A stretch of 64,000 bases of DNA from Bacteroidota bacterium (GTDB lineage: Bacteria; Bacteroidota; Bacteroidia; Chitinophagales; Chitinophagaceae): assembly GCA_030706605.1 (NCBI GenBank), contig JAUZOE010000002.1:1-64000 (forward strand), written 5' to 3'. The notes beneath the pieces were generated by a model. It ran no database searches, was not told the origin of the DNA, and was given only the letters and a program-made list of their open reading frames with translations. The position numbers and the translations under genes are program-made. This document shows positions 1 through 16,428 of this stretch, in pieces; position 1 is the stretch's first letter; each line of letters begins with the position of its first letter.

Positions 1-114
1 AAACAGAAAATTGCTATAATTTTATCTTCATTAAGCATCGGTAAAGATTTTTTAAGTGTCGTAACTCAAAATTATTCTTTATCGATGTCCTTTTTAATTA
101 GCAACTTGGGTTAA

Positions 115-687
115 TTAGTCCCTGTCATGGCCTCCATGATTACCTCGCCCATGTTCACCCCCATTTCCGCGACCATTATTTCTTCCTCCATTTCCTCTGC
201 CATCATCCCGTCCATAATCCCCACGATCACCGTGACGTTCATCTCTGTCTCCATAATGTCTATCCCCCCCCCTGTCGCGATTGTATCTTTCTCTTTCAGT
301 AAAATACCTATTATCCCGACTATCCCTTATTACAGGCTGATAACGCTCCCTATAAGATCTGTAATGATTACGATAATATTCATCCCGATCCCATGGATTA
401 CGTTGGTTAATTACCACTTTATAACTATGGTAAAGATCATAGCGGCCATAGCGGCCTGGTAGTGAGGCAGCAAAATTCCAGCGACCGTGATCATAGAAAA
501 CGAATAACCCCCGCGGAACATCGTAATAAACGTCCATATCGGGCAGGTAATAGTAATCAACATAATCATAACCCACAGGGCCCCATACTGGTTGAAGGCC
601 AATATTTACGTTGACTCTTACCTGTGCTTCTGTTTTATAGCAAAATGCACTTAAAAGAATTGCTGAGATAAGGAGAATTTTTTTCAT
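115..687 (-). CDS. Secreted low-complexity protein with Arg/Asp/Gly/His-rich tail
   Basis: This is a 190-residue protein of unknown function. Residues 1-21 form a signal peptide (MKKILLISAILLSAFC, cleavage near TEA-QV), so it is exported. Residues 22-90 are rich in Tyr, Val and Pro and include a PVWGPVGYDYVDYYYLPD-type segment, common in Bacteroidota periplasmic or outer-membrane proteins of unknown role. From about residue 95 to the end it is a low-complexity tail of RD, RG, NG and GH units, strongly basic and probably disordered. A run of nine G on the coding strand (plus-strand C9, 264-272) lies in codons 139-142 and could cause slippage. The ATG at 687 sits directly before the signal peptide. 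No operon partner is visible. Confidence 0.75.
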   Translation of the reverse strand: MKKILLISAILLSAFCYKTEAQVRVNVNIGLQPVWGPVGYDYVDYYYLPDMDVYYDVPRGLFVFYDHGRWNFAASLPGRYGRYDLYHSYKVVINQRNPWDRDEYYRNHYRSYRERYQPVIRDSRDNRYFTERERYNRDRGGDRHYGDRDERHGDRGDYGRDDGRGNGGRNNGRGNGGEHGRGNHGGHDRD

Positions 688-1150
688 CGTTATATATTTA
701 ATTGTTTAGATTACTAATATGATGACACTTTTATTTTAACATACATCAAATTTCATCTTATAATTACTAGGATGTAACTATTATGCCTGAGTTTAATGTA
801 AAGGCTACAATAACTTAATCTTAACATTTTTCACAGACTAATGAGAATTCATTAGTATTAAATTTTAAAAATAAAATACCTAGTGGTTGTCGGGATTAAT
901 CTGAACTTATCTGTTATCGCTATTAATGATTAATCAGGAAAAAGTAGTTCAGTTATATATTTCTATTTAAAAACAAAGAGGAAGATTTTTTTTTAAAAGA
1001 AAATTAATATTTACTGTATGATTTGATTGCAATAGTATTTTTAGACAATTTTACAAAATAGAAACAGCCTGTTTTATAATAATAATTTTGGAAGAAAAAC
1101 GAGAACCAGCTCCTCAAAAAAAATTACTTTTGCAACTATAATTATTCAAC
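688..1150. other. Gene-free divergent intergenic region
   Basis: About 460 bases separate the divergent starts of the secreted protein and the deoxyhypusine-synthase-like gene. It is very AT-rich with no ORF of useful length. A TACTTTTG sequence at 1125-1132 matches the Bacteroidota -7 consensus TAnnTTTG and sits 18 bases before the ATG at 1151, but I find no TTG at the expected -33 distance. I see no hairpin or repeat of note. Confidence 0.4.
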
Positions 1151-2125
1151 ATGAGCAAAGGACCTGTATCCCAATTTATAGAACATCATTATCGTCATTT
1201 TAATGCAGCTGCTTTAATGGACGCAGCGAAAGGATATGAAGTACATATTAATGAAGGAGGAAAAATGCTGGTATCACTTGCAGGAGCTATGAGTACTGCG
1301 GAATTAGGAATCTCCTTTGCTGAAATGATACGCCAGGATAAAGTGGCCATCATTAGTTGCACGGGAGCCAATCTTGAAGAAGATATTATGAACCTTGTAG
1401 CTCACAGTCATTATAAAAGAGTACCGAACTATCGTGATCTAAGCCCCCAGGAAGAATGGGATCTTTTAGAAAATCATTACAATCGTGTCACAGATACCTG
1501 TATCCCTGAAGAAGAAGCTTTCAGAAGATTGCAACAACACATTCATAAAATATGGAAGGATGCTGAAGCAGCAGGAGAGAGATATTTTCCTCATGAATAC
1601 ATGTACCAATTGCTGCGGAGTGGCATACTCGAACAATATTATGAAATAGATCCAAAAAATAGCTGGATGCTTGCCGCTGCTGAAAAAAATATTCCGATAG
1701 TAGTACCCGGCTGGGAAGACAGTACGATGGGAAATATTTTTGCTTCTTATGTTATTAAAGGAGAATTGAAGGCTTCTACCATAAAGAGCGGTATAGAATA
1801 TATGGTGGAGCTGAGCGATTGGTACCGGAAAAATTCTTCAGGAAAAGGTGTTGGATTTTTCCAGATTGGTGGCGGCATTGCTGGTGATTTCCCCATCTGC
1901 GTAGTACCCATGATGTACCAGGACCTGGAATGGACAGATGTTCCTTTCTGGAATTATTTCTGCCAGATATCAGATTCCACTACATCTTACGGATCTTATT
2001 CAGGAGCTGTTCCTAATGAAAAGATAACCTGGGGTAAACTGGATATTAATACTCCCAAATTTATTATAGAAAGTGATGCTACTATTGTGGCGCCTTTGGT
2101 ATTTGCATGGATTTTAGGATGGTAA
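1151..2125 (+). CDS. Deoxyhypusine synthase-like (homospermidine synthase-type) enzyme
   Basis: The 324-residue protein belongs to the deoxyhypusine synthase family, which transfers the aminobutyl group of spermidine to a lysine (eukaryotes and archaea) or to putrescine (homospermidine synthases), using NAD. Seen: a Rossmann-like core with ISCTGANLEEDI near residue 73, GGGIAGDFPICVVP near residue 242, and the C-terminal KITWGKL motif whose lysine (K296) matches the catalytic Lys that forms the enzyme-imine intermediate. Its length is slightly below eukaryotic enzymes (about 370). Bacteria have no eIF5A, so the substrate here is not known; polyamine metabolism is the best inference. It stands alone, 90 bases before a histidine kinase on the same strand. 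Confidence 0.85.
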   Translation: MSKGPVSQFIEHHYRHFNAAALMDAAKGYEVHINEGGKMLVSLAGAMSTAELGISFAEMIRQDKVAIISCTGANLEEDIMNLVAHSHYKRVPNYRDLSPQEEWDLLENHYNRVTDTCIPEEEAFRRLQQHIHKIWKDAEAAGERYFPHEYMYQLLRSGILEQYYEIDPKNSWMLAAAEKNIPIVVPGWEDSTMGNIFASYVIKGELKASTIKSGIEYMVELSDWYRKNSSGKGVGFFQIGGGIAGDFPICVVPMMYQDLEWTDVPFWNYFCQISDSTTSYGSYSGAVPNEKITWGKLDINTPKFIIESDATIVAPLVFAWILGW

Positions 2126-2215
2126 ATCTATTCAAAGTTTCTTTCTTTTGAAAAGCGAATCGATTCATAAATCAAAAAATTACTGGTTTTAATAAACCCG
2201 ATATTTACATTTTAA

Positions 2216-3262
2216 ATGATAAGTAAAAACTTCTCAGCGCAGCAGGCAGCCATCCTTACTGCCATTCCCATTGGCATAATGGGAAGTTTGGTATTTTATC
2301 TTTACAGCCATTTATGGCTGCCCTCATTAATTTTTCTAATTTCAATCATCCTCTTAGCGTATTACCTCATTAATTTTACCATCCAGCGATTTATTTACCG
2401 GAAAATAAAACTGATTTACAAATTAATTTACCAGACCAAAGCCAGTAAAAAAGAAGAATTTTATTTTAAAAATATTCTACCGCAAAAATCAATTGAAGAA
2501 GTAAATGAAGATGTAGAAGAATGGGCTGTACAGCATAAGGAAGAGATAGAAGTTCTTAGAAAAAACGAAGTATTCCGAAAAGAATTTTTGCTCAATCTTT
2601 CCCACGAATTAAAAACACCCATTTTCGCTATCCAGGGATATATAGATACCTTACTAAATGGAGCTTTGGATAATAATGATGTCAATAAAAGATTTTTGGG
2701 GAACGCCTCAAAAAATGTTGACCGGCTGGTAAACCTATTAATAGACCTCGATCAAATCACTAAATTAGAAAGTGGCGAATTATTTTTGGTTAAAGAAAAT
2801 TTCATTATCCAGGATCTCATTAAAGAAGTCTTTGATTCTCTTTCGATAAAAGCGGATGAAAAGAAAATAAAATGCTTTATAAAGAGTGGTTGCGAGTTAC
2901 CTTTAACTGTTTTTGCAGATAAAGAAAAAATCAGGATGGTGATTATCAACCTCGTTGATAACAGCATAAAATATGGCAAGCAAAATGGGACCATTGAGGG
3001 GAGTGCTTATAAGATAGATGGCAGGAAAATATTAGTAGAAATAAGCGACAATGGCTATGGCATAGCCGAAGAGCATCTTTCCAGAATCTTTGAAAGATTT
3101 TACCGGACAGACACTGCACGGGCCAGGAAGGTTGGTGGGAGCGGACTAGGTTTATCTATTGTAAAACACATTATTGAAGCACACGAAGACACAATTCATG
3201 TAAGAAGCAAAACTGAAGTGGGAACTACGTTTGGTTTTATATTGCCAACAGCAAGAACATAA
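2216..3262 (+). CDS. PhoR-like membrane sensor histidine kinase
   Basis: The 348-residue kinase has two membrane helices (about residues 10-30 and 34-56) with almost no periplasmic loop, a linker, a HisKA dimerisation domain with the phospho-acceptor H130 in LSHELKTP, and a HATPase_c domain with N-box NLVDNSIKYG, G1 box DNGYGIAEEHL, F box FERFYRTD and G2 box GGSGLGLSIVKHI. No PAS or HAMP domain is recognisable. The lack of a sensor loop resembles PhoR, which is thought to sense phosphate status through PstB and PhoU, and the pst operon lies 0.8 kb downstream on the other strand. No response regulator is encoded next to it or elsewhere in the window. The phosphate role is inferred from context. 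Confidence 0.8.
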   Translation: MISKNFSAQQAAILTAIPIGIMGSLVFYLYSHLWLPSLIFLISIILLAYYLINFTIQRFIYRKIKLIYKLIYQTKASKKEEFYFKNILPQKSIEEVNEDVEEWAVQHKEEIEVLRKNEVFRKEFLLNLSHELKTPIFAIQGYIDTLLNGALDNNDVNKRFLGNASKNVDRLVNLLIDLDQITKLESGELFLVKENFIIQDLIKEVFDSLSIKADEKKIKCFIKSGCELPLTVFADKEKIRMVIINLVDNSIKYGKQNGTIEGSAYKIDGRKILVEISDNGYGIAEEHLSRIFERFYRTDTARARKVGGSGLGLSIVKHIIEAHEDTIHVRSKTEVGTTFGFILPTART

Positions 3263-3321
3263 GTTTTCCTTTACATTTGATAATAATTACTTCATTTTAT
3301 TTCTCCAAAAAATAATCTGGA

Positions 3322-3990
3322 TCAAATATCGGGTTTACCACTTTCGGTAACCAATTCTGACTTTTTCGTATAGGCTATTCTGTTGATTATTTTTTCAAAA
3401 TAAATCCAACAGATAATTGCCGAAATAACTCCGATCGCAGATCCGGCTAATACATCATCTATAAAATGCTGGCCTAAATAAATACGACTATATCCTACCA
3501 GAGAAGCTAAGAATAAAAACAGAATAGAATAGTTTTTATTCTTTACCCAAAAACATAAAACTGCAGCCAGGGCAAAGGCTGAAGCGGTATGTCCGGAAGG
3601 AAATGAATGAAAATTATGCAAGGTTATGCCATCAATAAAATAAGGATAATGTGAATTCTTTAAATATAAAGCCGGCCGCGCTTCTAATATAAAGTATTTT
3701 AATACCTGTGCAATTATTCCTGATAAGGCATAACTACTAAATACCATTAACCCTAAAAATCGCTTTTTATATAAAAATAAAAAAAGACTCAGTACAACTA
3801 TAAAAAATCCATCACCGAGGTAAGTAGCCGGGATAAAAAAATAATCTAAAAATTCGGAATGGAATGGATTCAATAAGATAAACCCTTCAGCCTTTGTATA
3901 AAAGATCAGTAGGAAAATTGCCAAGAATACTAATGCCATATAACCAATAAAATAATATTGATTTTCTTTATAAATACGTTTTAAAGTCAT
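3322..3990 (-). CDS. PAP2-family membrane phosphatase
   Basis: The 222-residue integral membrane protein carries all three signature motifs of the PAP2 lipid phosphatase superfamily: a KYFILEARP motif (KxxxxxxRP), FPSGHTAS (PSGH), and SRIYLGQHFIDD (SRxxxxxHxxxD), the last two containing the catalytic histidines. Five to six hydrophobic helices surround them. Such proteins dephosphorylate undecaprenyl pyrophosphate, phosphatidic acid or lipid A phosphates on the periplasmic face; the substrate cannot be told from sequence. It reads toward the 3' end of the histidine kinase gene. The phosphate operon upstream on the same strand is separated from it by a terminator, so it is probably transcribed on its own. 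Confidence 0.85.
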   Translation of the reverse strand: MTLKRIYKENQYYFIGYMALVFLAIFLLIFYTKAEGFILLNPFHSEFLDYFFIPATYLGDGFFIVVLSLFLFLYKKRFLGLMVFSSYALSGIIAQVLKYFILEARPALYLKNSHYPYFIDGITLHNFHSFPSGHTASAFALAAVLCFWVKNKNYSILFLFLASLVGYSRIYLGQHFIDDVLAGSAIGVISAIICWIYFEKIINRIAYTKKSELVTESGKPDI

Positions 3991-4050
3991 GAAGTCTTTT
4001 TTCCTGAATTTGTAAAATTAACCAAAGCGTGAAGAATGATAATCTAAAAT

Positions 4051-4161: not shown

Positions 4162-4815
4162 TTATTGGTGCTTTAATACTTTTGCTTCAACATAAAATAT
4201 AATTTCTTCAGCAATATTTTTGGACTGGTCACCCACTCTTTCTAATTTCCTTATAATAGATAAAACAAATAAAGCTTCGTTTATATTTTTAAGATTTTCA
4301 AGAATATATTTCGAAATATTATTATCAGCATTTTTATTTATTTCATCAAGCATATCATCTCTTGAAAAAATAGTGCGGGCAAGAAGTGTATTCTCAAATT
4401 CAAAGGCAGCCTGCGCATCTGTCAAAATACTTATGGAGCCTTCAAACATTTGTAGCAATTGGGTTGATTCTAATATTTCCCTGTTGAATTTTGCAGGTGA
4501 ATCTACAATATATCTTGAAATACCGTCTGCAATATCTCCTATTCTTTCAAGGTTAGTATTAATTTTGAGCGCCGCCAATAAAAAGCGCAAATCGATAGCA
4601 ACAGGGCAATAGAGAGCAAAGATATTTTCGCAATCACTATCTATTTTTAATTCCAGGGCATTTACTCTTTTTTCCCTTGCAATAACTTCCCGGGCCAGGT
4701 CTTTATCAAAATTTAACATGGCCTCCCTCGATTTTAATAATTGCGAAAGAACCAGTTGCCACATCCTGATCACTTCAGATTTTACATCCTGCATTTCTGT
4801 CTCAAATTGTGTCAT
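4162..4815 (-). CDS. phoU: Phosphate signalling protein PhoU
   Basis: The 217-residue protein is all-helical with the duplicated PhoU layout. Each half carries a conserved E/DR[I/V]GD motif: ERIGDIADGISRY near residue 90 and ERVGDQSKNIAEEI near residue 195. PhoU sits in the cytoplasm, contacts PstB and the sensor kinase PhoR, and keeps the Pho regulon off when phosphate is plentiful. It is the last gene of the minus-strand operon, 22 bases after pstB, and is followed by a clear terminator. Length and motif positions are normal for the family. Confidence 0.95.
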   Translation of the reverse strand: MTQFETEMQDVKSEVIRMWQLVLSQLLKSREAMLNFDKDLAREVIAREKRVNALELKIDSDCENIFALYCPVAIDLRFLLAALKINTNLERIGDIADGISRYIVDSPAKFNREILESTQLLQMFEGSISILTDAQAAFEFENTLLARTIFSRDDMLDEINKNADNNISKYILENLKNINEALFVLSIIRKLERVGDQSKNIAEEIIFYVEAKVLKHQ

Positions 4816-4837: not shown

Positions 4838-5596
4838 TTAACTAAACCGGCCGGTTATATAATTTTGGGTACGTTTATCTTGTGGATTTGTAAACATATT
4901 TTTAGTTATATCATATTCAATTAATTCTCCCATATAGAAAAACGCAGTCTTATCACTAACTCTACCGGCCTGTTGCATATTGTGTGTTACAATAATAATA
5001 GTATAATTATTTTTAAGCTCATGTAGCAATACTTCTATATTAGAAGTAGAAATAGGATCCAGGGCCGATGTAGGTTCGTCCAGCAACAATACTTCAGGTT
5101 CCATGGCAATGGCTCTTGCAATACACAAACGTTGTTGCTGTCCACCCGATAAAAAAGTTCCTTTTTTGTGCAATGAATCTTTAACCTCGTTCCATAATGC
5201 AGCTTTTTGCAGTGACTGCTCAACGATAATGTCTTTATCCCGTTTAGCAATTTTCATTCCATTGAGTTTGTAACCCGCTATCACATTATCGTATATACTT
5301 AAATTAGGAAAAGGATTGGGGCGCTGAAAAACCATTCCTATTTTATGGCGTACAAATATGGGGTGCATCCCATATACATCTTCATTATTCAGCATCATTT
5401 TACCTTTGGTAGTAGCCCCTTCAATTAATTCGTGCATACGATTAATACAACGCAGAAAAGTAGTTTTGCCGCATCCTGAAGGTCCCATAACCGCAACAAC
5501 ATTATTTTTAGGGATCTCCATGTTTATTTTCTTAACAACATGATTCTCTCCAAAATAAGCATCAAAATCAATAGCTTTTAGAATTGTATTTTCCAT
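4838..5596 (-). CDS. pstB: Phosphate ABC transporter ATP-binding protein PstB
   Basis: This is the ATPase of the high-affinity phosphate importer. The 252-residue protein starting [10 protein letters not shown] shows Walker [10 protein letters not shown], the Q-loop in VFQRPNPFP (the NPFP segment is typical of PstB), signature [14 protein letters not shown], Walker [14 protein letters not shown] and the H-loop in VTHNMQQ. The frame is open to 5683, but the ATG at 5596 gives the family's usual N-terminus; the 29 extra residues would lie inside the end of pstA and look non-coding. With this start the gene overlaps pstA by 19 bases, implying translational coupling. Confidence 0.95.
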
Positions 5597-6423
5597 CTTC
5601 TGGTTGTAATCTTTGTGATTATGTTCAATAATAATACCCAAATAAGCAAAATAAGCGCCGCACCCCAGGCTAGGTCGTGCCATTCATCATATGGGCTGGT
5701 AGCATAGTTAAAAATCAATAATGGCAAACTTTGCATTGGCTTTAAAATATTTGTAGAAAAGTAGGGATTGCCAAATGCAGTAAATAATAAAGGCGCCGTT
5801 TCTCCTGCAATTCTTGCAACAGCTAATATTATTCCCGAAAGCACACCACTAAATCCACAAGGTAAAATAATTCTTAGTATAACTTTATGATAAGGCAAGC
5901 CTAAAGCGAGCCCGGCTTCTTTTAATGTTGACGGTAATAATTTCAGCGTTTCTTCTGTAGATCTTACTACAATAGGCAGCATCATTATTGCCAAAGCAAT
6001 GCTTCCTGATAATGCTGAAAAAGTACCTAATGGTTTTACTATCCAGAAATAAATAACAATGCCAACAACGATTGAAGGAGTACCCTGTAGCACATCCACC
6101 GAAAGGCGACACCAATAAGACAATCTGCTCTTTTTATTTTCACTTAAGTAAATGCCTCCCATAATACCAAAAGGAATAGCAATTATTGCAGCATAAAAAA
6201 CAATCAACAAACTTCCAATAAGCGCATTGGCTATTCCTCCCCCGGTTTCACCTACAGGCTTTGGCAGGTTTACCAGGAAATGCCAGTTAATTTTTGTGAA
6301 TCCTTCTTTTAAAATATAAATAAGAATTAAAAATAAAGGAAGTGTACATAAAACGGAAAGAAATATAATAAAGCCTTTAAAGGCTTTACTCTTACCTAAC
6401 CTATATTGTATATTTTGAGGCAT
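5578..6423 (-). CDS. pstA: Phosphate ABC transporter permease PstA
   Basis: The 281-residue inner-membrane permease has six predicted helices and the ABC-permease coupling segment ([20 protein letters not shown], with the EAA motif), which docks on PstB. Family features include [10 protein letters not shown] after helix 2 and [21 protein letters not shown] late in the protein. It pairs with PstC to form the phosphate channel. Only 3 bases separate it from pstC, and its 3' end overlaps pstB, so the three are one transcription and translation unit. Confidence 0.95.
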
Positions 6424-6426
6424 AAA

Positions 6427-7413
6427 TTAATCAGTTGTAAATCGCTTAATTATTTTTTTTCCGATTAAATTAATAAGAACAGTAACAAGAAATAAAATCA
6501 GGCCTAATTCTATTAATGAGGATAAATAAAGTGTGCTTGCAGCTTCAGTAAACTCATTAGCAATAACACTCGCCATCGTATTACCGGGATCAAAAATACT
6601 TTTTGGAATAATGCTTGTATTGCCAATAACCATTGTTACCGCCATAGTTTCTCCCAGCGCCCTTCCTAGAGATAACAAAATTCCCGCAAAAAGACCCGAT
6701 TTAGAATATGGCAGAATCACTGTTTTTATCACCTCATACCTGGTTGCTCCTAAGGAATAAGCTGCTTCTTTTAGTGAAGAAGGCACCATTCGGATCATTT
6801 CTCTTCCTAATGATGCGGCATAAGGAATTATCATAATAGCCAAAATCAAGGAAGACGTAAATATTCCAATACCATATGGAGTTACGCCAAGTTTCAATTC
6901 CATACTTCGCACAATGGGTACCAAAACAAATAAACCCCAAAAACCGTAAATCACCGAAGGAACAGCAGCTATTAATTCTATAGAATTTTTTAAAAATTCA
7001 GAAAACCAACCACGGGGGTAATATTCTCCCAAAAAAATTGCTATCGAAAATGAAAAAGGTATAGATATAATTAATGCCAAAAAGGAAGTAAATAAAGTAC
7101 CCAGCAAAAAAGGATAAGTTCCGTAAACATTGGCCACGGGATCCCATGTTTTTCCAAATAAAAAACTAAAACCCAATGCTTTTATTGAAGGCATTGATTG
7201 TACAATCAATGTAAATAAAAAAGCAATTACCAACACGAGAATACTTAATGCAACCAACACAAGAGAAGATCTGAAAATCTTCTCCATCCGTATCTGGCGA
7301 AAAGTCCGTTTTATTTTAATACTTTTCCAAACATCCATTTTTGCTATATATGAAATTTCCCGCACTAATAAATTACTGCGGGAATCCCGTGATTTTATGA
7401 ATGAGAATTTCAT
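6427..7413 (-). CDS. pstC: Phosphate ABC transporter permease PstC
   Basis: The partner permease of PstA, 328 residues from the ATG at 7413. It has about six helices, the coupling motif PSSLKEAAYSLGATRYEVI, and ALGETMAVTMVIGN near the end, which is typical of PstC. The frame extends to 7452, but that start would overlap the end of pstS; 7413 leaves 16 bases after the pstS stop. An ATG at 7338 (MDVWKS) is also possible and would give a length nearer the family norm of about 300. The first 60 residues are polar and poorly conserved. Confidence 0.93.
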   Translation of the reverse strand: MKFSFIKSRDSRSNLLVREISYIAKMDVWKSIKIKRTFRQIRMEKIFRSSLVLVALSILVLVIAFLFTLIVQSMPSIKALGFSFLFGKTWDPVANVYGTYPFLLGTLFTSFLALIISIPFSFSIAIFLGEYYPRGWFSEFLKNSIELIAAVPSVIYGFWGLFVLVPIVRSMELKLGVTPYGIGIFTSSLILAIMIIPYAASLGREMIRMVPSSLKEAAYSLGATRYEVIKTVILPYSKSGLFAGILLSLGRALGETMAVTMVIGNTSIIPKSIFDPGNTMASVIANEFTEAASTLYLSSLIELGLILFLVTVLINLIGKKIIKRFTTD

Positions 7414-7429
7414 TACAATGATAAGAATT

Positions 7430-8557
7430 TTATTGCAAAACAGGTTTGCCATTAAAAACAGGTTTGCCGTTAAAAGTCGCAGATTTCAAAATAGCTTCTG
7501 CTACAGCAACTGCTGCCGGTGATAATGGTGCATAATGTAACCCCTCACAGTATTGCTGTCCTTCATGAATATTCCACCACAATAATTTTACAAGGTTTTG
7601 TGCTTTTTGCTCTGAACGTTTATTGTAAGCTTGTTCCTGGTAAATCAATGCCCATGTAAAACCACTTATCGGGTAACCTTCTGCCGCATCAGTATTTCCT
7701 AAAAATATTTTTGAATCAGCAGGCAATTGTACATTACTTGCAGCACTTGTTGAAGCAATGCTGGGTGCAATAAAATTGCCAGCCTTATTCTGTACTTTTG
7801 CAAAGGCCATTTTGTTTTGAATTGCATAAGCCAATTCAATATACCCAATCCCTCCGGGAGTTTGTTTAATAAGCCCTGCCACGCCTTCATTACCTTTTCC
7901 ACCAAGCCCTATTGGCCAGTTTACAGCAGTTCCTTTACCTACTTTTGATTTCCATTCATCATTCACCTTTGAAAGATAATCAGTAAAAATATTGGTGGTG
8001 CCGCTTCCATCAGAACGGTGAGCAATAACAATAGCCGTTGCAGGTAATTGTATCCCTTTATTAATGGCAGCAATTTTTGCATCATTCCATCTGGTAATCT
8101 TGCCAAGAAAAATATCTGCAAGTACTTCCGGACTCAAGTTCAGGGTATCTTTTACCTCAGGTAAATTATAGCTTATCACGACTGCACCCGAACACATCGG
8201 AATGTGCAAAACCGGCACGCCTATTTTCTGTGCCTGTTCATCATTTAGTGGTGCATCAGAATCACCGAAATCAACCGTTTTATTAGTCAATTGCAAAATG
8301 CCCCCACCGGATCCAATTGACTGGTAATTTATTTTTAATCCTGTTTGTTTATTATATTCTGAAAATTGTTTGGAAAATAATGGATATACAAATGTACTTC
8401 CTGCTCCCAAAAGCGTCTTGTCATCACTGTTCGTTGCAGTTGAATCTGAACTACTATTATTTGAAGATCCGCCATTACACCCAGGTGTAATGCTGCCAAC
8501 AATTGCTAATACAAAAGCTACAAAAAGAGCGCTTTTTATTTTTGATTTTAATTTCAT
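7430..8557 (-). CDS. pstS: Phosphate-binding lipoprotein PstS
   Basis: The 375-residue substrate-binding protein of the phosphate importer. A signal peptide ends in a lipobox (ITPGC, Cys near residue 27), so it is a periplasmic lipoprotein; a Ser/Asn/Asp-rich linker follows. Phosphate-binding motifs of the family are present: GAGSTFVYPLF, GSGGGILQLTNKTVDFGDSDAPL, and HRSDGSGTTNIFTDYL. The C-terminal FTWALIYQEQ segment also fits PstS. It lies 40 bases after the porin gene and 16 before pstC in one operon. Confidence 0.95.
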   Translation of the reverse strand: MKLKSKIKSALFVAFVLAIVGSITPGCNGGSSNNSSSDSTATNSDDKTLLGAGSTFVYPLFSKQFSEYNKQTGLKINYQSIGSGGGILQLTNKTVDFGDSDAPLNDEQAQKIGVPVLHIPMCSGAVVISYNLPEVKDTLNLSPEVLADIFLGKITRWNDAKIAAINKGIQLPATAIVIAHRSDGSGTTNIFTDYLSKVNDEWKSKVGKGTAVNWPIGLGGKGNEGVAGLIKQTPGGIGYIELAYAIQNKMAFAKVQNKAGNFIAPSIASTSAASNVQLPADSKIFLGNTDAAEGYPISGFTWALIYQEQAYNKRSEQKAQNLVKLLWWNIHEGQQYCEGLHYAPLSPAAVAVAEAILKSATFNGKPVFNGKPVLQ

Positions 8558-8597: not shown

Positions 8598-9800
8598 TTA
8601 TTTGCCAAAAACGTAATAAAAAGTGAACCGGTAAACAAGGTCATAACTGTTATATTTATACGCAAAACCCTGGTTAATATATTTATTATACCAGATGTTT
8701 GGCATAAGGTGTACTTTGCTCACAGGTGTAAAATCCAAACCGGCAGTAATAAATTGTTCTTTTGTAGATGGATCATTAAAACCACTGGCATTGCCAACAT
8801 ACTTATTATACTTAGCATTGTCAATTTTATTATCCGGGTTCAAGGCATCGAAACGTGCAAAGAAATTTAATTTGTCTTTTATAATAGGTCCGTGGGTAAA
8901 AATTGATATCCCCTTTGCCTGAACCGTCAAAACATCAACATTGCCTGTAGAAATTTCTGTAGCCTGGTTATCGTTTTGCAGTCTATTATTATAGGCTTCC
9001 ACGCCAACGGTGATTTTTGGTACAATATAGGCTACAAAACCTTTAATCATACTTCTTGAATGCTGCATTCCCGCAATCGGAGACATGCGGTTATAATCGA
9101 TATATAAATTTACATACAATTTTTTATCAAGGAATTTTCCCCAAATATCGGTGGAGAGCCACTTATATTTATCTCCTTCGGGTTTAGCCCCGGTTCCATT
9201 ACCCACCATTACATCATAACCAAAATTTCCTGTTTTTGGATCAAACTTACCCTGCAAAGCAGCCCCTAAATCATAGGAAGGCGCCCCGCGGTTATCATAT
9301 ATGGTCTTTTCTATAGAGCGATAAGCCCATATATTTTCTGATGACATAGGGAAACCTAATGTTGATACCTGACCAAGAACAAGATCTGTCCCTTTCCAAA
9401 CATTTTTAATACGTAAGTTGGCCAACTTTATATAAAAAGCCAGTTTATTATCAGCCAATGCGTCACCGCTTGTTGCTCCATTTGCAGCCTCAAGTAATAT
9501 TTCAGCAGAAAATTTCTTGTTGATATTATAATTATAGCCAAAATACAAACGCCTTATCTGGAAAGCATTTCTACCTTTCGGGATACCTGTGTACTGGTTA
9601 CCACCACCCCTGTTTAATGTATCAGAATGACCCTTGTAATAAAAGTCTGCGAATGAATATCCCCAAAGTTGGCCAGAATTAGGGCTTCCGGCCTTAAAGG
9701 CCGAATCAGAATTATTAGTAAATTGGGCTTTCAAAGAACTACTTACAAACAATCCCAGGCAAAGAAATGGTCCAAAAAATAAATGTTTTTTATTAAACAT
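8598..9800 (-). CDS. Phosphate-selective porin (OprP/OprO-like)
   Basis: The 400-residue protein starts with a signal peptide (MFNKKHLFFGPFLCLGLFVSS, cleaved before QFTNNSD) and continues as alternating amphipathic beta strands, ending in an aromatic strand (YRFTFYYVFGK) as outer-membrane barrels do. It resembles the OprP/OprO phosphate-selective porin family seen with pst genes in Bacteroidota, and as the first gene of the operon would let phosphate cross the outer membrane. The frame extends to 9842, but the predicted promoter (9825-9834) lies inside that extension, so the ATG at 9800 is preferred. Selectivity for phosphate is inferred from family and context. Confidence 0.85.
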   Translation of the reverse strand: MFNKKHLFFGPFLCLGLFVSSSLKAQFTNNSDSAFKAGSPNSGQLWGYSFADFYYKGHSDTLNRGGGNQYTGIPKGRNAFQIRRLYFGYNYNINKKFSAEILLEAANGATSGDALADNKLAFYIKLANLRIKNVWKGTDLVLGQVSTLGFPMSSENIWAYRSIEKTIYDNRGAPSYDLGAALQGKFDPKTGNFGYDVMVGNGTGAKPEGDKYKWLSTDIWGKFLDKKLYVNLYIDYNRMSPIAGMQHSRSMIKGFVAYIVPKITVGVEAYNNRLQNDNQATEISTGNVDVLTVQAKGISIFTHGPIIKDKLNFFARFDALNPDNKIDNAKYNKYVGNASGFNDPSTKEQFITAGLDFTPVSKVHLMPNIWYNKYINQGFAYKYNSYDLVYRFTFYYVFGK

Positions 9801-9824
9801 TTGGCATATATAAATAATTTCGTG

Positions 9825-9834
9825 CAAAGCACTA
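9825..9834 (-). promoter_or_regulatory. Candidate -7 element of the phosphate operon
   Basis: On the minus strand the sequence is TAGTGCTTTG, a variant of the Bacteroidota TAnnTTTG element with two extra bases. It lies 24 bases before the porin ATG at 9800 and 7 bases after the last repeat of the putative Pho box. A nearly identical TAATGCTTTG is found upstream of susC. Confidence 0.5.
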
Positions 9835-9841
9835 CTTATCA

Positions 9842-9880
9842 TGTTACCAAATTGTTACATGCACATTAATTTAATGTTAA
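9842..9880 (-). promoter_or_regulatory. Putative Pho box: four hexamers at an 11-bp period
   Basis: Read on the minus strand the hexamers are TTAACA (9880-9875), TTAATG (9869-9864), GTAACA (9858-9853) and GTAACA (9847-9842), each separated by exactly five bases. PhoB of Escherichia coli and PhoP of Bacillus subtilis bind tandem direct repeats with this same 11-bp period; the Bacillus repeat is TTAACA-like. The array ends 42 bases before the porin ATG and abuts the candidate -7 element, so an activator would overlap the -33 region. The regulator itself is not in the window. Confidence 0.65.
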
Positions 9881-9952
9881 CAAATCAAATTTTCTTTGCA
9901 AATTATAATTCATTCACATTGTGATCAACTTAACTTAATAATGATCTTAAAA

Positions 9953-9978
9953 ACCACCCCGCATGAATGGAGGGTGGT
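9953..9978 (-). terminator. Terminator after the susC-susD operon
   Basis: An inverted repeat ACCACCC (9953-9959) / GGGTGGT (9972-9978) with a 12-base loop, followed on the minus strand by TTTTTAAG. It lies about 170 bases past the susD stop and separates that operon from the Pho box. The rest of 9881-10148 holds no gene that I can see. Confidence 0.65.
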
Positions 9979-10148
9979 ACAGGCAGAAAATTTCTGTTTT
10001 GCTTGCGAAAAATTTAAAGTTTATTTTATTTAAAAATCAAGTGTAAAATAGGTCCCCCATATTATTAATACATTATGCCAGGATTAAATAATCGTTAACA
10101 ATAATTCCTTATAAAGGTTATTTTTTGCGCAGATCCAGGTTTCTTATT

Positions 10149-11636
10149 TTATTTCTCCCACCAGGCTTTAAAAGTTGTATTTTCTGTTCCTCCCATATTC
10201 TTTATTTCGGCACCATAGTTAGTACTATTAATTGTTTGTTCTGATGTTGGATATAAAAATCTCGAAGGAATCACCCCATTATTCATATTAGCATATCCGC
10301 CGGTTTGAAAATCAGGATATCCGGTGCGCCGGTATTCAATCCAACCTTCGAACCCATTATTAATATTACTGATCCACTTTTGTGTGATGATTTGATTAAG
10401 AGCCGATGCCATGGAAGAGTTGTCAAACATGACAGTAGTATGCGTCAGGTAATTGCTGGCAACTGTTGCAATAAACCCCGCTTCTGCGAAAGCTCCCATA
10501 ATTGCGTTATCATAATAGGTTTTAGCAGCAGCGCTTCCCCCCGCTATGTAACCTTTTAAAGCAGCCTCTGATATAACAAATTCCTGTTCTGCATACGTCA
10601 TTACTTTTGCTTTTAGTAAAGAAGGATTGCTACCCGTTTTAAAACTTGCATTAAAATTAGAAGCGCCGTTCACCTGGTCTGTAGTAGCATCTACTACTAA
10701 TGGCATTCCTCCATAGTTTGAAAAACTGAATGGAGTCCCAGAAGCAGTATTAGTGTTTATAGCAAAATAAACCGTAAGGCGAGCCGTATCTGATGTATTT
10801 ACAAATGTATTGTACAGTATGTTGTTTAAATATTTTACTGCAAAATCACCAGAACGCTCTGTAAGGCTCACAAAATTATAAGGAGTAGTGGTCGGTAATT
10901 GCAATGTGGCACTTTCTGTGGCATTTTGCATTAATGTTCCACCTGCTACTATGGATTGCATTTCTGCAGATGGATCCATTTTTGAAGATACACGCAAAAG
11001 ATAGCGCAATCTTAAAGCATTAATAAATTTTCTCCATAAAATAGTGTTGGAATTATAAAGCATGTCTCCTGAAATTATGCCATTCGGATTTGCATTTAAA
11101 AGACTATCCGCTCTTTTAAGAGATGGCAATATTCCCGATTGAGTATCTGTATATACTGTTTGCTGAGGATCATATGACGGAGTATAAATAGCTGTATTGC
11201 CTTGCAATGCTTGCTTAAATGGAATGTCGCCCCATAATTCAGTTAATTGAGCAAAAGCATAAGAACGTAAAGTAAGAGCCGCAGCCTCCAGCAAAGGATT
11301 ACTTTTTGCCTGGGCAAGTATATATAAAGTATTTGCATCTCTTGCCGATTCATATAAAGATATCCAGTAAGGTTCATTTGTTATGGGAGAGTACCGGGTT
11401 GGCTGATCATAATAAGATTGGCTAAAAGTCATGTATTGATCATACCCGTTTCCCAACGTCCATACAATATTGGCATTATTGTAAAATTCTGAAACAATTG
11501 TATTTGATAATAAGGTAGTAGCATCGGGCGATTCTAATGCATTTGGGTTCTGATTTACCCGCTGCAATTCTTTGGAGCAGGATGCCAAAATAATACTGCC
11601 TGCTGCTATGGTAAGAAATACTATATATTTTTTCAT
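10149..11636 (-). CDS. SusD/RagB-family outer-membrane lipoprotein
   Basis: The 495-residue surface lipoprotein forms the lid of a SusCD importer. The signal peptide ends with the lipobox LASC (Cys near residue 20), and KELQRVNQNPNALESPD follows, typical of the SusD-like_2 subfamily. Helical TPR-like segments include LRSYAFAQLTELWGDIPFKQAL (near residue 130) and FINALRLRYLLRVSSK (near 210), and the C-terminus has WIEYRRTGYPDF, a family hallmark. It lies 22 bases after susC in the same transcript. The ligand is unknown; glycans are usual for the family, but the promoter resembles that of the phosphate operon. Confidence 0.92.
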   Translation of the reverse strand: MKKYIVFLTIAAGSIILASCSKELQRVNQNPNALESPDATTLLSNTIVSEFYNNANIVWTLGNGYDQYMTFSQSYYDQPTRYSPITNEPYWISLYESARDANTLYILAQAKSNPLLEAAALTLRSYAFAQLTELWGDIPFKQALQGNTAIYTPSYDPQQTVYTDTQSGILPSLKRADSLLNANPNGIISGDMLYNSNTILWRKFINALRLRYLLRVSSKMDPSAEMQSIVAGGTLMQNATESATLQLPTTTPYNFVSLTERSGDFAVKYLNNILYNTFVNTSDTARLTVYFAINTNTASGTPFSFSNYGGMPLVVDATTDQVNGASNFNASFKTGSNPSLLKAKVMTYAEQEFVISEAALKGYIAGGSAAAKTYYDNAIMGAFAEAGFIATVASNYLTHTTVMFDNSSMASALNQIITQKWISNINNGFEGWIEYRRTGYPDFQTGGYANMNNGVIPSRFLYPTSEQTINSTNYGAEIKNMGGTENTTFKAWWEK

Positions 11637-11658
11637 GATTTTATTTTTATTAATTACA

Positions 11659-14600
11659 TTAAAATTTAAGTCCGAGCGAAAAACCCAGACTTTTAGCAGA
11701 TGGAATACTCAGAAATTCTGTTCCGGGTAAAATCTGTTGTCCGCGAAGCGCTAAAGTTTCGGGATCCACATCTTTGTTCTGAGTAAATTCCAATACATTC
11801 CTTGCAACAAAAGCCAAGTTCAGTTTTGCATTGGATGTGCCACCAAAAATTTTATTAAATGTATATCCTAAACGAAATTCCCGCAGTTTTAAATAAGAAG
11901 CATTGTACATGAAAGCTTCATTATTAGATGCATTATAGTAAGCATTATAATAAGTTGCAGCTGACACTTTTACATTGTTGGGAACATACTTTCCTGAAGC
12001 ACCATCCATCATAACTCCATTTCCTTTAATTCCTGTTTCTCTGCCAGGCAATGTTTCTACAGACATGCCGCCAGCTAATACGCCTAATTCAGTATAAGAA
12101 TAGAATTTTCCACCCTGGTGCCAATCCCAAAGAAAGTTCAGATTGAACCCTTTATAAGACAGGTCATTAGACCAGGCAAGCACAAAATCAGGATTATAGT
12201 TACCTAATAAAGTATTTTGTGTGGAAGTAAATGTAGGAACACCATTTTTATATACAATGTTACCCTGCGGGTCTCTTACAAAAGAATTTCCATACATATT
12301 GCCTAACCGCTGTCCAACTTTTGCATCGTACTGAATGGCACGATAATAACGATCATATTGAGTTACCTGGGCATATACATAAGTATTGATTCCATCTGGA
12401 AGTGATACCACTTTCCCCACATTATGACTAAAATTAAATGCTATATCCCAATTAAGTCCATCAGGATTAACCGGCCTCAATGCTTTAACTGTTAACATAA
12501 TTTCTATACCTGTGTTATCAATTTTTCCTCCGTTTACATAAGCATTGGTATACCCTGAAGAAACAGGAATTGGTAATTGCACTACTTCATCTTTCGTTTT
12601 TGATTTGTAAATAGTAGCGTCTATCCCAATTCTATTATCCACAAACCTGGCTTCTACACCAAGTTCTGTTGTCGTTGTCGATGAAGGTTTCAGATTATTG
12701 TTGGCCAAAACATTATTGCCTGTTGTAAGTGGGTAACTGCCAAAGGGCGTATTGGTATTATACGTATTGCTGATTGAATACGGATCTGCATCACGACCCA
12801 CCTGTGCCGCTGAAACTCTTAGTTTTAAAAAAGAAATAGCGGCTGGAAGATGCACCATATCTGATATGATACCACTTAATGAAGCAGAAGGATAATAATA
12901 GGAATTTTTACCCACAGGCAAAGTACTCGAATGATCATTGCGTCCTGTTACATTTAGAAAAAGTAAATTTTTATAGCTTAAATCAGCAAATGCATACATG
13001 CTGTAAACGATCTTATCAAACTTTTGATATAATGTGGGTAACTGGCTTTGTGCATTAGAAAAACTATACAATCCAGGAGTGATTAAAGTATTGGCAATAT
13101 CCCTGGTGTACGTAACATTTTGCATAAATCTGTTGCCACCGACAGATGCACTTACATTAAATAAATGACCGGGTTTTTTCTTATAACTGATAAGAAAATC
13201 AGTATTATTTTCAAAATAAACTACATTATCAGTTCGAAATCCTCCCGAAGGAAATCGAACAGTTGTAAAAGCACGATGTCCTTCCCTTGCATCATTATAG
13301 TAATCTGTTCCTGTTCTTACCATAATGTCCAATTGAGAATTAACAGCATATTTTAAAGAGGCATTCCCTATAACCCTGTTTTTATTGAAACTATTTACAT
13401 TGTCGTTCAATGTTACATATGGGTTATCATGATTGTTCCAATAACGTAATTGATTTTGTTGATTTCTCCCGGTTTGCCATTGTTGTTTAAGGGCGTTTAT
13501 ATCCATGTTAATAGGCATCCCATACACACCAAAGAAAGTGTAAATCACACTTTCAGAACCATACCCAATATTAGGCCGGTTCCGGCTGCTGCTATTGATA
13601 AAATTGATAAAAAAGTCTGAGGATAATTTATCGCTAAAAGAATGACTCCCTCTGAGAGAAAGGCCAAAACGATTTAAACCTGTCCCCGGCAATAATCCTT
13701 TGTTTGATAAATTATTAAATGAAAACCGGTAAGTTCCATGATCGCTTACACCACCAAAACTGATATTATTTTGTGTTGTAACACCGGTTTGAAGAAATTT
13801 CTTAAAATGATCAGCATGGCCAATCCATGGTGTAGGTGTCACGGTCAAACCAGGATTTGCACCACGGTAAACCAGGTCGCCAGCAAGGTATCCATTTCCG
13901 GCAGGGCTGTTAAACTGTACGACATCTAAACTGGGATCAAATTTAAGCCCCCAGTTGGGTATATTATTTTCACTGGAACCCCCTCCGTTTACAAATGAAT
14001 AGGTATTAGGAGCTCCAGTTAATGGGTAAGCATTTACACCTGCACCATACTCATTTTGGAGACGAGGCAATTTTAACGGGGTTTCAAATGTGGTTGTTGA
14101 ATTAAAGTCGATTCCTATCAATCCTTTTTCGCGGGTTCCTTTCTGTGTTGTTAAGACTACTGCACCATTGGCAGCTCTGGAGCCATATAAAGCGGCGGCA
14201 GTTGAACCTTTCAAAACTGTTACTTTAGAAATATCGTTGGGATTCACTTCTGCTGCGCCATTGCCCCAATCCACTTCAGCCCAGGTACCTTGTCCTGAGG
14301 AATTTTCTATTGCATTATTAAAAAATGTTTCATTATTTATAGGCACTCCATCGACAACAAATAAGGGTTGATTAGTTCCATTGAACGAGTTTTCTCCCCT
14401 GACAACAATCCTTGAAGTAGAACCCACACCAGCTCCTCCATTTGTTATTACAACACCTGCGACTTTTCCACTGATATTATTAATCAGATTGGGGTCCTGT
14501 GATTCGGTAAGTTGTTTTCTATTAATTGATTGCACAGCATATCCCAGAGTTTTCGATTGTTTACTGATACCCAGCGCGGTTATTACTATTTCATTTAATG

Positions 14601-14919
14601 ATTTATTGTCTTTTTGGAGCGCTATTTCAAAAGTATTCTTATTTCTAGTTTCTATTATGACCGGCAAATACCCGACAAAAGAAATATTTAATTTTTCGTC
14701 TCCCCTTGCATTAATCTTAAAATTCCCAGAACCATCAGTGAGTGTTCCCGCTTTCGTATTTTCCAATAATACAGCAGCACCGACAACAGGCGTTTTTTCA
14801 ACGTTATCTATTACCCTTCCGGTTATTGTCCTTGTTGCCTGCGCTAATAGTTGATTCGGGCTTAATAGAAGAAATTGTCCCAAAAAGAAGATTAAGATTA
14901 CAGAATAAAAATTTTTCAT
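11659..14919 (-). CDS. SusC/RagA-family TonB-linked outer-membrane transporter
   Basis: A 1086-residue TonB-dependent transporter. Order: signal peptide (1-26), a carboxypeptidase-regulatory-like beta-sandwich (ITGRVIDNVEKTPVVGAAV, about 33-115), a plug domain with the SusC signature FVVDGVPINNETF (about 190-203), and a large 22-strand-type barrel to the C-terminal strand LGFSLGLKF. It works with the SusD lipoprotein 22 bases downstream to import a ligand using TonB energy. No sigma or anti-sigma gene and no polysaccharide-degrading enzyme accompanies the pair, unlike a typical polysaccharide utilisation locus. The upstream region has a two-repeat Pho-box-like site. Confidence 0.93.
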   Translation of the reverse strand: MKNFYSVILIFFLGQFLLLSPNQLLAQATRTITGRVIDNVEKTPVVGAAVLLENTKAGTLTDGSGNFKINARGDEKLNISFVGYLPVIIETRNKNTFEIALQKDNKSLNEIVITALGISKQSKTLGYAVQSINRKQLTESQDPNLINNISGKVAGVVITNGGAGVGSTSRIVVRGENSFNGTNQPLFVVDGVPINNETFFNNAIENSSGQGTWAEVDWGNGAAEVNPNDISKVTVLKGSTAAALYGSRAANGAVVLTTQKGTREKGLIGIDFNSTTTFETPLKLPRLQNEYGAGVNAYPLTGAPNTYSFVNGGGSSENNIPNWGLKFDPSLDVVQFNSPAGNGYLAGDLVYRGANPGLTVTPTPWIGHADHFKKFLQTGVTTQNNISFGGVSDHGTYRFSFNNLSNKGLLPGTGLNRFGLSLRGSHSFSDKLSSDFFINFINSSSRNRPNIGYGSESVIYTFFGVYGMPINMDINALKQQWQTGRNQQNQLRYWNNHDNPYVTLNDNVNSFNKNRVIGNASLKYAVNSQLDIMVRTGTDYYNDAREGHRAFTTVRFPSGGFRTDNVVYFENNTDFLISYKKKPGHLFNVSASVGGNRFMQNVTYTRDIANTLITPGLYSFSNAQSQLPTLYQKFDKIVYSMYAFADLSYKNLLFLNVTGRNDHSSTLPVGKNSYYYPSASLSGIISDMVHLPAAISFLKLRVSAAQVGRDADPYSISNTYNTNTPFGSYPLTTGNNVLANNNLKPSSTTTTELGVEARFVDNRIGIDATIYKSKTKDEVVQLPIPVSSGYTNAYVNGGKIDNTGIEIMLTVKALRPVNPDGLNWDIAFNFSHNVGKVVSLPDGINTYVYAQVTQYDRYYRAIQYDAKVGQRLGNMYGNSFVRDPQGNIVYKNGVPTFTSTQNTLLGNYNPDFVLAWSNDLSYKGFNLNFLWDWHQGGKFYSYTELGVLAGGMSVETLPGRETGIKGNGVMMDGASGKYVPNNVKVSAATYYNAYYNASNNEAFMYNASYLKLREFRLGYTFNKIFGGTSNAKLNLAFVARNVLEFTQNKDVDPETLALRGQQILPGTEFLSIPSAKSLGFSLGLKF

Positions 14920-15372
14920 AAATTTTTTGTAAGGTGAATTTATTACTTAAACAAAATGTTTAAAAAGTGAGGCTAAGATTGATTATAAGTACAGTCAAAG
15001 CATTAAAACAGTTACCTAGATGTTAAGCAAATACCCGTTTTTGAATTTGTAATCTTTGCTCAAACTTTTTTGCTTTTTACAAAGCCGTTTATTGAAAAAT
15101 ATTTAATAAAAAAGGATAATTATATATGATCCAGGTCAGTTTTATGCTGCAAAGAGAGCAAAGTAATGTTATGGAAGAGTTACCACTATATTATCTAAAG
15201 GTTATGAATTTATACTATTATGAATAATAGGTTTTCAAAACTACACACAACATATTCTGGATAATTGTTGAAAGTAATTATCAACTTTAAGTAACCAATC
15301 AGTTTCATTTTTAAATTCAGAGTTATCCCAATAGCATATTACTTTTGTAATCAATTTTAGTTACTTTGTATT
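14920..15372. other. Gene-free region between susC and galE
   Basis: About 450 bases between divergent genes. The susC side contains the motif pair described at 14996-15026. On the galE side, TACTTTTG at 15340-15347 matches the TAnnTTTG -7 consensus and lies 25 bases before the galE ATG, although no TTG is well placed for a -33 element. I see no other structure. Confidence 0.45.
14996..15026 (-). promoter_or_regulatory. Candidate susC promoter with two Pho-box-like hexamers
   Basis: On the minus strand: TTAACA (15026-15021), five bases, GTAACT (15015-15010), four bases, then TAATGCTTTG (15005-14996). The hexamers have the same sequence type and 11-bp period as the array before the phosphate operon, and the 10-mer differs from TAGTGCTTTG there at one base. 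The site is about 77 bases upstream of the susC ATG. Only two repeats are recognisable, so confidence is lower than for the porin promoter. Confidence 0.5.
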
Positions 15373-16428
15373 ATGAATAAAATTTTAGTTACAGGAGGAT
15401 GCGGTTATATTGGAGCCCATACCATTGTTGACCTTATTCAAAATGGTTTTGACCCTATAAGTATAGATAATAACTCAAGGTCTACGCCGGCTTTACTTGC
15501 CGGTATAAAAGACATTACCGGGGTTACTATAAAAAATTATAAAGTTGACCTCAGTAATTTTGATGAAGCCTATGCTGTATTCCAGGAAAATACAGATATC
15601 AAAGGCATTATACATTTTGCCGCTTATAAAGCAGTTGGTGAATCAGTAGAAAAGCCATTAATGTATTTTGAAAATAATTTATTCTCTCTTATTAATGTTT
15701 TAAAATGTGCTAACGAATTTAATATACCTCATTTTATCTTTTCTTCTTCATGTACTGTTTATGGCAGCCCGGATAAAATACCTGTAACGGAAGATACACC
15801 CACTCAGCCCGCAGAGTCCTCATATGGCGCTACCAAACAAATGGGAGAAGAAATTGTAAGAGATGTAACAAAAGCTGGCGAGTTGCAGAGTGTTTTGTTA
15901 AGATATTTTAACCCGGTAGGTGCTCACGCCTCAGCTTTAATCGGTGAGTTACCCTTGGGAAAACCACAAAACCTGATTCCAGCAATCACACAGACCGCGA
16001 TAGGAAAACTTAAAGAAGTTACTGTTTATGGAAATGATTATCCTACAAGAGATGGCTCATGCATCCGCGATTATGTACACGTATGTGACATTGCTCATGC
16101 GCATACACTCGCACTGCAATATTTAATTGAAAAGAAAAATAAGGAAAAATCTGAAATCTATAATCTTGGCACCGGTAATGGCGTTTCTGTTCTGGAAGCT
16201 ATCCATGCTTTTGAAAAAGTAAGTAATCATAAACTTAATTACAAAATAGGAGCAAGAAGGCCGGGTGATATTATGGCAATTTATGCAAACAATTCATTGG
16301 CAAAAGATAAATTGGGTTGGATTCCCAAATATTCATTAGACGAAATGATGGATACTGCCTGGAAATGGGAATTAAAATTAAAACAAGATGAGGCATTACA
16401 TAACAATCCCAATTTTCAGATGAATTAG
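15373..16428 (+). CDS. galE: UDP-glucose 4-epimerase
   Basis: The 351-residue short-chain dehydrogenase/reductase interconverts UDP-glucose and UDP-galactose. The NAD-binding GGCGYIGAH motif is at residues 8-16, IHFAAYKAVGESV near residue 80, the catalytic Ser/Thr region SSSCTVYGSPD near 124, and the YxxxK pair in SSYGATKQ near residue 150. TRDGSCIRDYVHVCDIA and the C-terminal RRPGDIMAIYANNSLAKDKLGW segment are typical of GalE. It is a single gene, probably supplying UDP-galactose for lipopolysaccharide or exopolysaccharide. Confidence 0.95.
   Translation: MNKILVTGGCGYIGAHTIVDLIQNGFDPISIDNNSRSTPALLAGIKDITGVTIKNYKVDLSNFDEAYAVFQENTDIKGIIHFAAYKAVGESVEKPLMYFENNLFSLINVLKCANEFNIPHFIFSSSCTVYGSPDKIPVTEDTPTQPAESSYGATKQMGEEIVRDVTKAGELQSVLLRYFNPVGAHASALIGELPLGKPQNLIPAITQTAIGKLKEVTVYGNDYPTRDGSCIRDYVHVCDIAHAHTLALQYLIEKKNKEKSEIYNLGTGNGVSVLEAIHAFEKVSNHKLNYKIGARRPGDIMAIYANNSLAKDKLGWIPKYSLDEMMDTAWKWELKLKQDEALHNNPNFQMN

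Follow-up and report, generated by a model that had tools for sequence, protein, structure and literature searches.

A tandem array of 11-bp direct repeats upstream of a Chitinophagaceae porin-pstSCAB-phoU operon, a predicted PhoB operator of the Bacteroidota

The window, by which we mean the whole stretch of 64,000 nucleotides that was analysed, carries a porin-pstSCAB-phoU operon on its minus strand. The first gene (8598..9800) encodes an outer-membrane porin-like protein of 400 aa, which was named by resemblance, with homologues preceding pstS in relatives; no Pfam or NCBIfam match to the protein was found. Position 9800 is the likelier start because a signal peptide-like sequence, recognized by eye, begins there; an in-frame ATG at 9842 overlaps the fourth repeat of the array described below. 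The porin gene is followed by pstS (7430..8557; Pfam PF12849, with TIGR00975 above cut-off), pstC (6427..7452; PF00528), whose true start probably lies downstream of the listed ATG, pstA (5578..6423; PF00528), pstB (4838..5596; PF00005) and phoU (4162..4815; PF01895). The reading frame of pstB was listed as 4838-5683, and its start, MENTI, was matched by eye to Ginsengibacter hankyongi (locus L039). Past the operon lies a PAP2 phosphatase gene. A histidine kinase gene on the plus strand (2216..3262; HisKA and HATPase_c), probably encoding PhoR, converges on the pst operon, and no response regulator gene was found beside it within positions 1-4000 of the window. Upstream of the pst operon and on the same strand lies a susC-susD pair (10149-14919), made up of susC (11659-14919; SusC/RagA, TIGR04056) and susD (10149-11636; SusD-like_2).

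The array lies between the susCD pair and the porin gene. Read directly, the minus strand from 9880 to 9842 is TTAACA-N5-TTAATG-N5-GTAACA-N5-GTAACA with an exact period of 11, as an earlier sequence-only reading of this DNA had reported with the right coordinates. The four hexamers occupy 9875..9880 (repeat 1, TTAACA), 9864..9869 (repeat 2, TTAATG), 9853..9858 (repeat 3, GTAACA) and 9842..9847 (repeat 4, GTAACA), and are separated by ttaaa, tgcat and atttg. Repeat 4 is followed by tgataag, TAGTGCTTTG (9834-9825) and CA; read in 11-bp units, tgata completes the fourth unit, and agtagtgc separates it from TTTGCA at 9823..9828, the core of the -7 element, 13 bases past repeat 4. The candidate Pho box of four direct repeats spans 9837..9880 on the minus strand. 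The gap of 42 bases which the sequence-only reading had measured from the last hexamer to the first gene of the operon was confirmed with the porin ATG at 9800. Its description of a -7-like element beside the array held in part: TTTGC(A) is conserved in relatives, but TAGTGCTTTG is not a perfect TAnnTTTG, with GT at the expected TA position.

When KTAACA was scored at four positions 11 apart, the 300 bp upstream of the window operon reached 22/24, a score attained by 0/2000 dinucleotide shuffles of that upstream region (shuffle maximum 19). The scoring hexamer was derived from the window site itself, and it is therefore the relatives that provide independent evidence. Porin homologues were found in 28/147 genomes of the window's own family, and pstS loci were taken from 80 named contigs (the best 80 of 187 loci), among which Ginsengibacter hankyongi was the closest named record with 83% PstS identity. 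After exclusion of one locus in which no start codon was found (L011) and of loci whose porin match started past residue 60 (for example L050 and L062), 67 porin upstream regions were left. Removal of 10 duplicate loci gave 57 upstreams, window included, for the shuffle and period test, with five near-duplicate pairs remaining; removal of 15 duplicates and near-duplicates gave 52 upstreams for the matrix and hexamer-only tests.

A four-repeat array of period 11 scoring at least 19 was present in 41/56 of the relatives' porin upstreams (window excluded). Other periods (8-10 and 12-15) gave 0 or 1 upstreams of 56, and shuffled sets averaged 0.2. When a position matrix was trained with the window and its genus sister left out, it recovered the same register in both, and leave-one-out matrices placed an array in 45/52 porin upstreams. 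The seven upstreams without one were L015, L019, L022, L027, L031, L034 and L037; L015 and L037 are each the second copy in their genome, the array being present at the other one, and L027, counted as a miss, retains repeats 3 and 4 plus TTTGC. In Ginsengibacter hankyongi the array was retained despite upstream neighbours that differ from those in the window. A low-affinity phosphate permease gene and a DUF47 gene (both by eye; L039 282-1996) lie there divergently beside pst, at the place held by susCD in the window. The region is AT-rich, and an accidental repeat in such DNA, or an upstream region shared by ancestry without function, might at first sight account for the array. A chance repeat was rejected by the shuffles and the relatives, and the presence of the array before unrelated genes, together with its retention in Ginsengibacter hankyongi, makes either form of this explanation barely credible.

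With respect to spacing, TTTG lay exactly 13 bases after the last hexamer in 41/45 matrix-placed arrays, a figure partly built in, as the matrix registers were first chosen with TTTGCA counted. The test was therefore repeated with hexamers alone, which placed an array in 39/51 porin upstreams, with TTTG at 13 bases in 28/39; stricter hexamer-only scores gave 25/32 and, at the strictest, 16/18. TTTG was missing at 13 bases in 11/39 arrays, and in 5/39 it was found at 24 bases, one repeat off. A comparison of orthologous upstream regions had been proposed along with the sequence-only reading, and the array came through it, with period 11 in most upstreams and a mostly fixed distance to TTTG. Position 5 of the hexamer reads C, T, C, C over repeats 1-4 of the window, and in relatives (n = 41) it was mostly C in repeats 1 (33) and 3 (38) and T in repeats 2 (30) and 4 (26). 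This alternation suggests that the units form two pairs. The array also preceded pstS in 9/10 Marinifilum/Labilibaculum-type loci (the miss being L110), none of them in training and all presumably from one family of Bacteroidales, and a -7-like TAAC/TAAT-ATTG sits there in the same register. The box consists of four 11-bp units (consensus KTAAYATTNNG) set head to tail, and it ends 13 bp before a -7 TTTGC.

Promoter coordinates were inferred by setting TTTG at -8 to -5 after PMC9723704, where TAnnTTTG is quoted as the sigma-A consensus for F. psychrophilum with the box at -12 to -5. On this scale the array is predicted to span about -60 to -17 with the -33 position inside repeat 3, and the predicted transcription start lies near 9820, leaving a leader of about 20 nt. 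As in known Pho boxes, the array would overlap the upstream promoter element, by this inferred start position, and it keeps a largely constant distance to the downstream one by both of the counts given above.

To search for further sites, a sequence-only profile (R1) was built from 40 gapless-aligned arrays of relatives (40 of 43; L086, L014 and L092 were excluded), with the window's genome not in it. R1 ranked the window site (9881-9823) first in its own genome (39.4 bits, E 2.3e-9). Five matches were obtained at E<=0.05, in the order window site, an array before susC (19.7 bits), a stretch at 10045-10099 (19.1), a match on contig C16 (16.8) and one at C37:23847 (16), followed by 15 weaker matches with E from 0.16 to 6.2. 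The genome-wide motif search suggested earlier thus placed the window site at the top, with further sites before susCD and PlcP-like operons. The match at C16:37382 falls inside a gene (a phosphoketolase, by eye) and was taken as chance. No convincing array was found upstream of the genome's second porin gene (C19) or of its probable phoB.

The array before susCD (minus strand, about 15148-15205) reads ATAACC, ATAATA, GTAACT and ATAACA plus TTTGCA in the same geometry, and its 19.7 bits correspond to E 0.0035 for the genome and 5.2e-5 for the window. A partial two-repeat stretch is also present upstream of susC at 15033-15004. By its array, susCD may be a phosphate-regulated outer-membrane transporter. 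The weaker array-like stretch (10045..10099, minus strand; E 0.0052) lies between susD and a terminator-like hairpin within 9976-9948, about 70 bases past it, both being upstream of the main box; the two may be what is left of a box, or mark a short transcript under phosphate control. A reading as a small RNA was set aside, with no Rfam match in window positions 9700-15500. The site at C37:23847 precedes a Metallophos gene, a glycosyltransferase gene and a family 1 glycosidase gene. At L147 4077-7359, in the window's genome, the genes for a PlcP-like phosphoesterase, a glycosyltransferase and a family 1 glycosidase form an operon with a weak array before it, a candidate for phosphate-saving lipid remodelling. 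The Metallophos gene was named PlcP-like by analogy with the phosphate-induced Fjoh_4577 (PF12850; PMC8115612).

Across the family, R1 matched 94/98 genomes at E<=0.05, some of which had given training arrays, and 108 matches at E<=1e-4 were counted among those listed. A control profile with its letters reversed, applied to the family genomes and the 80 named loci, matched 39/98 family genomes, none at E<=1e-4 (best E 2.2e-4), and gave 2 matches in the named loci versus 62 with R1. The R1 matches comprised 51/64 named Bacteroidota loci, many of the 51 being training sequences or copies and one Ignavibacteriales locus, a miss, being counted in, and 0/16 other named loci (one of unstated phylum).

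The genes downstream were sorted into classes at the 70 best among the 150 listed family matches, at 24 loci at phylum level and at 20 chosen sites; gene names at scanned sites were assigned by likeness and by eye, except for those checked with Pfam. An open reading frame on the same strand started -35 to +60 nt from the site end at 62/70 of the best family sites versus 389/7600 random positions. TonB receptors or similar barrels followed 37 of the 70 sites (of four checked with Pfam, two were TonB receptors and two of OMP_b-brl_4 type). A further 12 sites preceded pst porins, nine of these being training arrays and none of the other 58 sites having been in training. The remainder preceded six PlcP-like genes (one checked with Pfam), five lipoproteins (one member scanned, no Pfam match), two phosphodiesterase-like genes (one checked, PF01663), five single proteins and, in genome G056, one PhoB-type regulator followed by its kinase, a phoB-phoR pair; two sites had no open reading frame. 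When 20 longer regions were inspected, 19 contained a receptor, followed in 12/19 by one lipoprotein family, and one region contained a histidine phosphatase. In F. johnsoniae, phosphate depletion induces TonB receptors, adjoining lipoproteins, SusCD pairs, PlcP, EndA nucleases and phoB (PMC8115612). The gene set downstream of the family sites appears to mirror these classes, the lipoproteins being matched by class only, and it is by this analogy and by their neighbours that the TonB receptors, the commonest downstream class, may be linked to phosphate.

Beyond the family, R1 matched 82/296 phylum genomes at E<=0.001. Among the genes downstream in the 24 phylum-level loci are those for porins, PstS, PstC, TonB receptors and Na/Pi cotransporters (Pfam confirmed Na/Pi and two of the PstS; the others were named by eye), several of them in families outside the class. 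The 20 further sites within the class comprised 17 in family f5 and three in two other families. Half of these (10/20) precede phosphate-type genes, namely four DUF47/PhoU_div, three Porin_O_P, one PstS, one lipoprotein and one endonuclease I, the last carrying the fn3 and LTD domains that make up the domain set of F. johnsoniae EndA1 and EndA2, which are phosphate-induced (PMC8115612). At the other 10/20 no recognisable phosphate gene was found downstream. Like a known Pho box, the array thus stands before pst and other phosphate-starvation genes at several promoters, with half of the class sites in other families lying elsewhere. Six near-alike KTAACA-type sites in family f5 (L282, L286, L287, L288, L289 and L292), with an aspS-like gene (by eye) downstream in two and no clear open reading frame in four, are not explained by phosphate control.

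The repeats might instead belong to the general promoter of the phylum, for example as an extended upstream element of sigma-A promoters, and so be no specific operator. In favour of this, most arrays keep a fixed distance to a -7-like TTTGC, and the matches are dominated by TonB receptor genes, which are expected to be common in these genomes. A promoter element of general use is nonetheless disfavoured by the few matches in the window's own genome (the five at E<=0.05), by the reversed control and by the downstream gene set, where pst, PlcP-like, Na/Pi, DUF47 and phoB genes turn up repeatedly. For F. psychrophilum, TAnnTTTG is given as the sigma-A consensus (PMC9723704). We regard this explanation as very improbable.

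In the class sample, pstS was found in 14/198 genomes, and when these loci were scanned together with flanks of 1.5 kb, R1 matched 4/14; one of the four comes from a training genome and another is weak (E 0.018). Weak arrays with TTTGC in place were seen by eye at L244 and L247, and one R1 match in G241 falls just outside the scanned pstS flank. The box is thus widespread but not universal. A broader reading would take one operator-promoter module, consisting of two PhoB dimer sites with alternating C/T placed 13 bp before the -7 element and without a -33 element, as the ancestral Pho box of the Bacteroidota taken broadly, with Chitinophagales, Bacteroidales and other classes included. It would also define a phylum-specific phosphate regulon with TonB receptor-lipoprotein pairs, SusCD (including the window susCD) and PlcP lipid remodelling at its core beside pst. 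We place this reading at even odds, because the independent Bacteroidales evidence comes from what is presumably one family and the class sample gave 4/14.

With respect to the regulator, six matches to the OmpR/PhoB DNA-binding domain were obtained in the window's genome. One of these, L145 on contig C8, was nearest to PhoB among the NCBIfam models, at scores below the equivalog cut-offs (TIGR02154, 226 bits with a cut-off of 296; NF053854, 216 with a cut-off of 270). For the four that were scanned among the remaining five, the nearest models were YycF, PmrA (two) and RprY, all below cut-off. For the window kinase at 2216-3262, PnpS and PhoR were among the best NCBIfam matches, again all below cut-off. 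With the regulator of the array-bearing phoB-phoR pair in G056 (locus L205), L145 shares 63% identity; the kinase that follows this PhoB-type regulator and the window kinase share 55%. The PhoR-like kinase and its probable PhoB partner are encoded apart in the window's genome, unlike the adjacent pair in G056. The recognition helix of L145 is nearly the same as that of E. coli PhoB (1gxp, 3t72; DRTIDVHIRKIRQ versus DRTVDVHIRRLRK), and despite the aligned recognition regions the core is TAACA here and TGTCA in E. coli. Over the 296 phylum genomes, a PhoB-type (L145) match at E<=1e-50 was present in 80/82 genomes with an array versus 134/214 without an R1 match; relatedness inflates the counts in these co-occurrence tables, and hence no probability is given. 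This co-occurrence and the array at one phoB-phoR operon support PhoB as the regulator predicted to bind.

The array could alternatively be read by another regulator of the OmpR/PhoB family, such as the L120 type, possibly the counterpart of the Riemerella anatipestifer regulator named PhoP, for which DAP-seq gave a motif with the core TTTAACA, reported to be ArcA-like, and redox and Bat targets, among them moxR, the Bat genes and a TonB receptor (PMC9603813). Presence of the array and of an L120-type match at E<=1e-50 are indeed associated in the same tables (36/82 array genomes versus 40/214 others). At this threshold, however, 46/82 array genomes, those of family f5 included, had no L120-type match, and it is this co-occurrence across the phylum, set beside the near-constant presence of the PhoB type, that disfavours an L120-type reader. 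Phosphate genes also make up many of the downstream genes, and one array sits before a phoB-phoR pair. Taken together, we consider control by such a regulator unlikely. In L120 itself (1492-3209 and 126-1484), an OmpR-type regulator and a kinase lie beside a BatD-like gene (by eye); this may correspond to the PhoPR of Riemerella, which controls the Bat operon there. The Riemerella regulator shares with the present case the core hexamer, the phylum and an autoregulated OmpR-family protein, and it differs in that the text of PMC9603813, its logos aside, mentions neither an array of tandem 11-bp units nor a fixed spacing to the promoter. Expression of pstS was up 8-fold in a Riemerella PhoP mutant (PMC5399024), which argues against a simple PhoB, and the regulator with the TTTAACA motif may therefore not be PhoB.

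Among known systems, the boxes of Bacillus PhoP and cyanobacterial SphR/PhoB are TTAACA-like direct repeats with an 11-bp period. By these consensus sequences the array resembles them in core and period, and differs in phylum, promoter and regulator. A Pho box consists of 11-nt direct repeats with the core CTGTCAT in E. coli and a consensus that varies between species (PMC4415409), in agreement with the period that the sequence-only reading had ascribed to PhoB and PhoP repeats of other phyla. The array, with four units at period 11 where at least two make a box, has this architecture and lacks the E. coli-type core, its consensus being KTAAYA. It shares with the E. coli PhoB box the head-to-tail 11-nt units, the pst-type targets, the nearly identical recognition helix and, as predicted here, the replacement of the upstream promoter element. 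It differs from that box in its core (KTAAYA in place of CTGTCA), in the usual four units of the pst promoters seen here and in its usual position 13 bp before a -7 TTTGC, the E. coli box lying near a -10 element. Within the phylum, PhoB of Bacteroides fragilis binds a 512-bp pstC promoter fragment in vitro (PMC3547664); the target operon is the same, as compared through that paper, whose main text is without the words consensus and repeat and has Pho box once. In the literature searched, most subscription journals lying outside it, nothing was found that describes a Pho box of tandem 11-bp units for Bacteroidota. The array most likely represents an operator of a known type, in a phylum for which that literature gave no defined tandem box.

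From these data we conclude that the array is very probably the PhoB operator, or Pho box, of the porin-pstSCAB-phoU operon and one instance of a box widely used in the Bacteroidota, with binding predicted from sequence. The sequence-only reading had offered a candidate Bacteroidota Pho box whose regulator and function were inferred, and this proposal is now strengthened by conservation in relatives, by the sites at phosphate genes and by the co-occurrence with PhoB. When phosphate is scarce, PhoR, which is probably the kinase at 2216-3262, would phosphorylate PhoB, predicted to be the response regulator encoded on contig C8. PhoB would then bind the four units as two head-to-tail dimers that cover the predicted span of the array, and bound PhoB would replace the -33 element and recruit sigma-A RNA polymerase to the -7 element.

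The Bacteroidota have a promoter code of their own, and what the papers cited say about phosphate control there is based on expression data and gel shifts, with no tandem site defined. With a sharply defined box of favoured geometry that can be searched for, sequence would suffice to predict the phosphate regulons of the phylum, and the action of an activator at a -7/-33 sigma-A promoter could be tested cleanly. Many TonB receptors and lipoproteins whose substrates are unknown would also gain a likely trigger.
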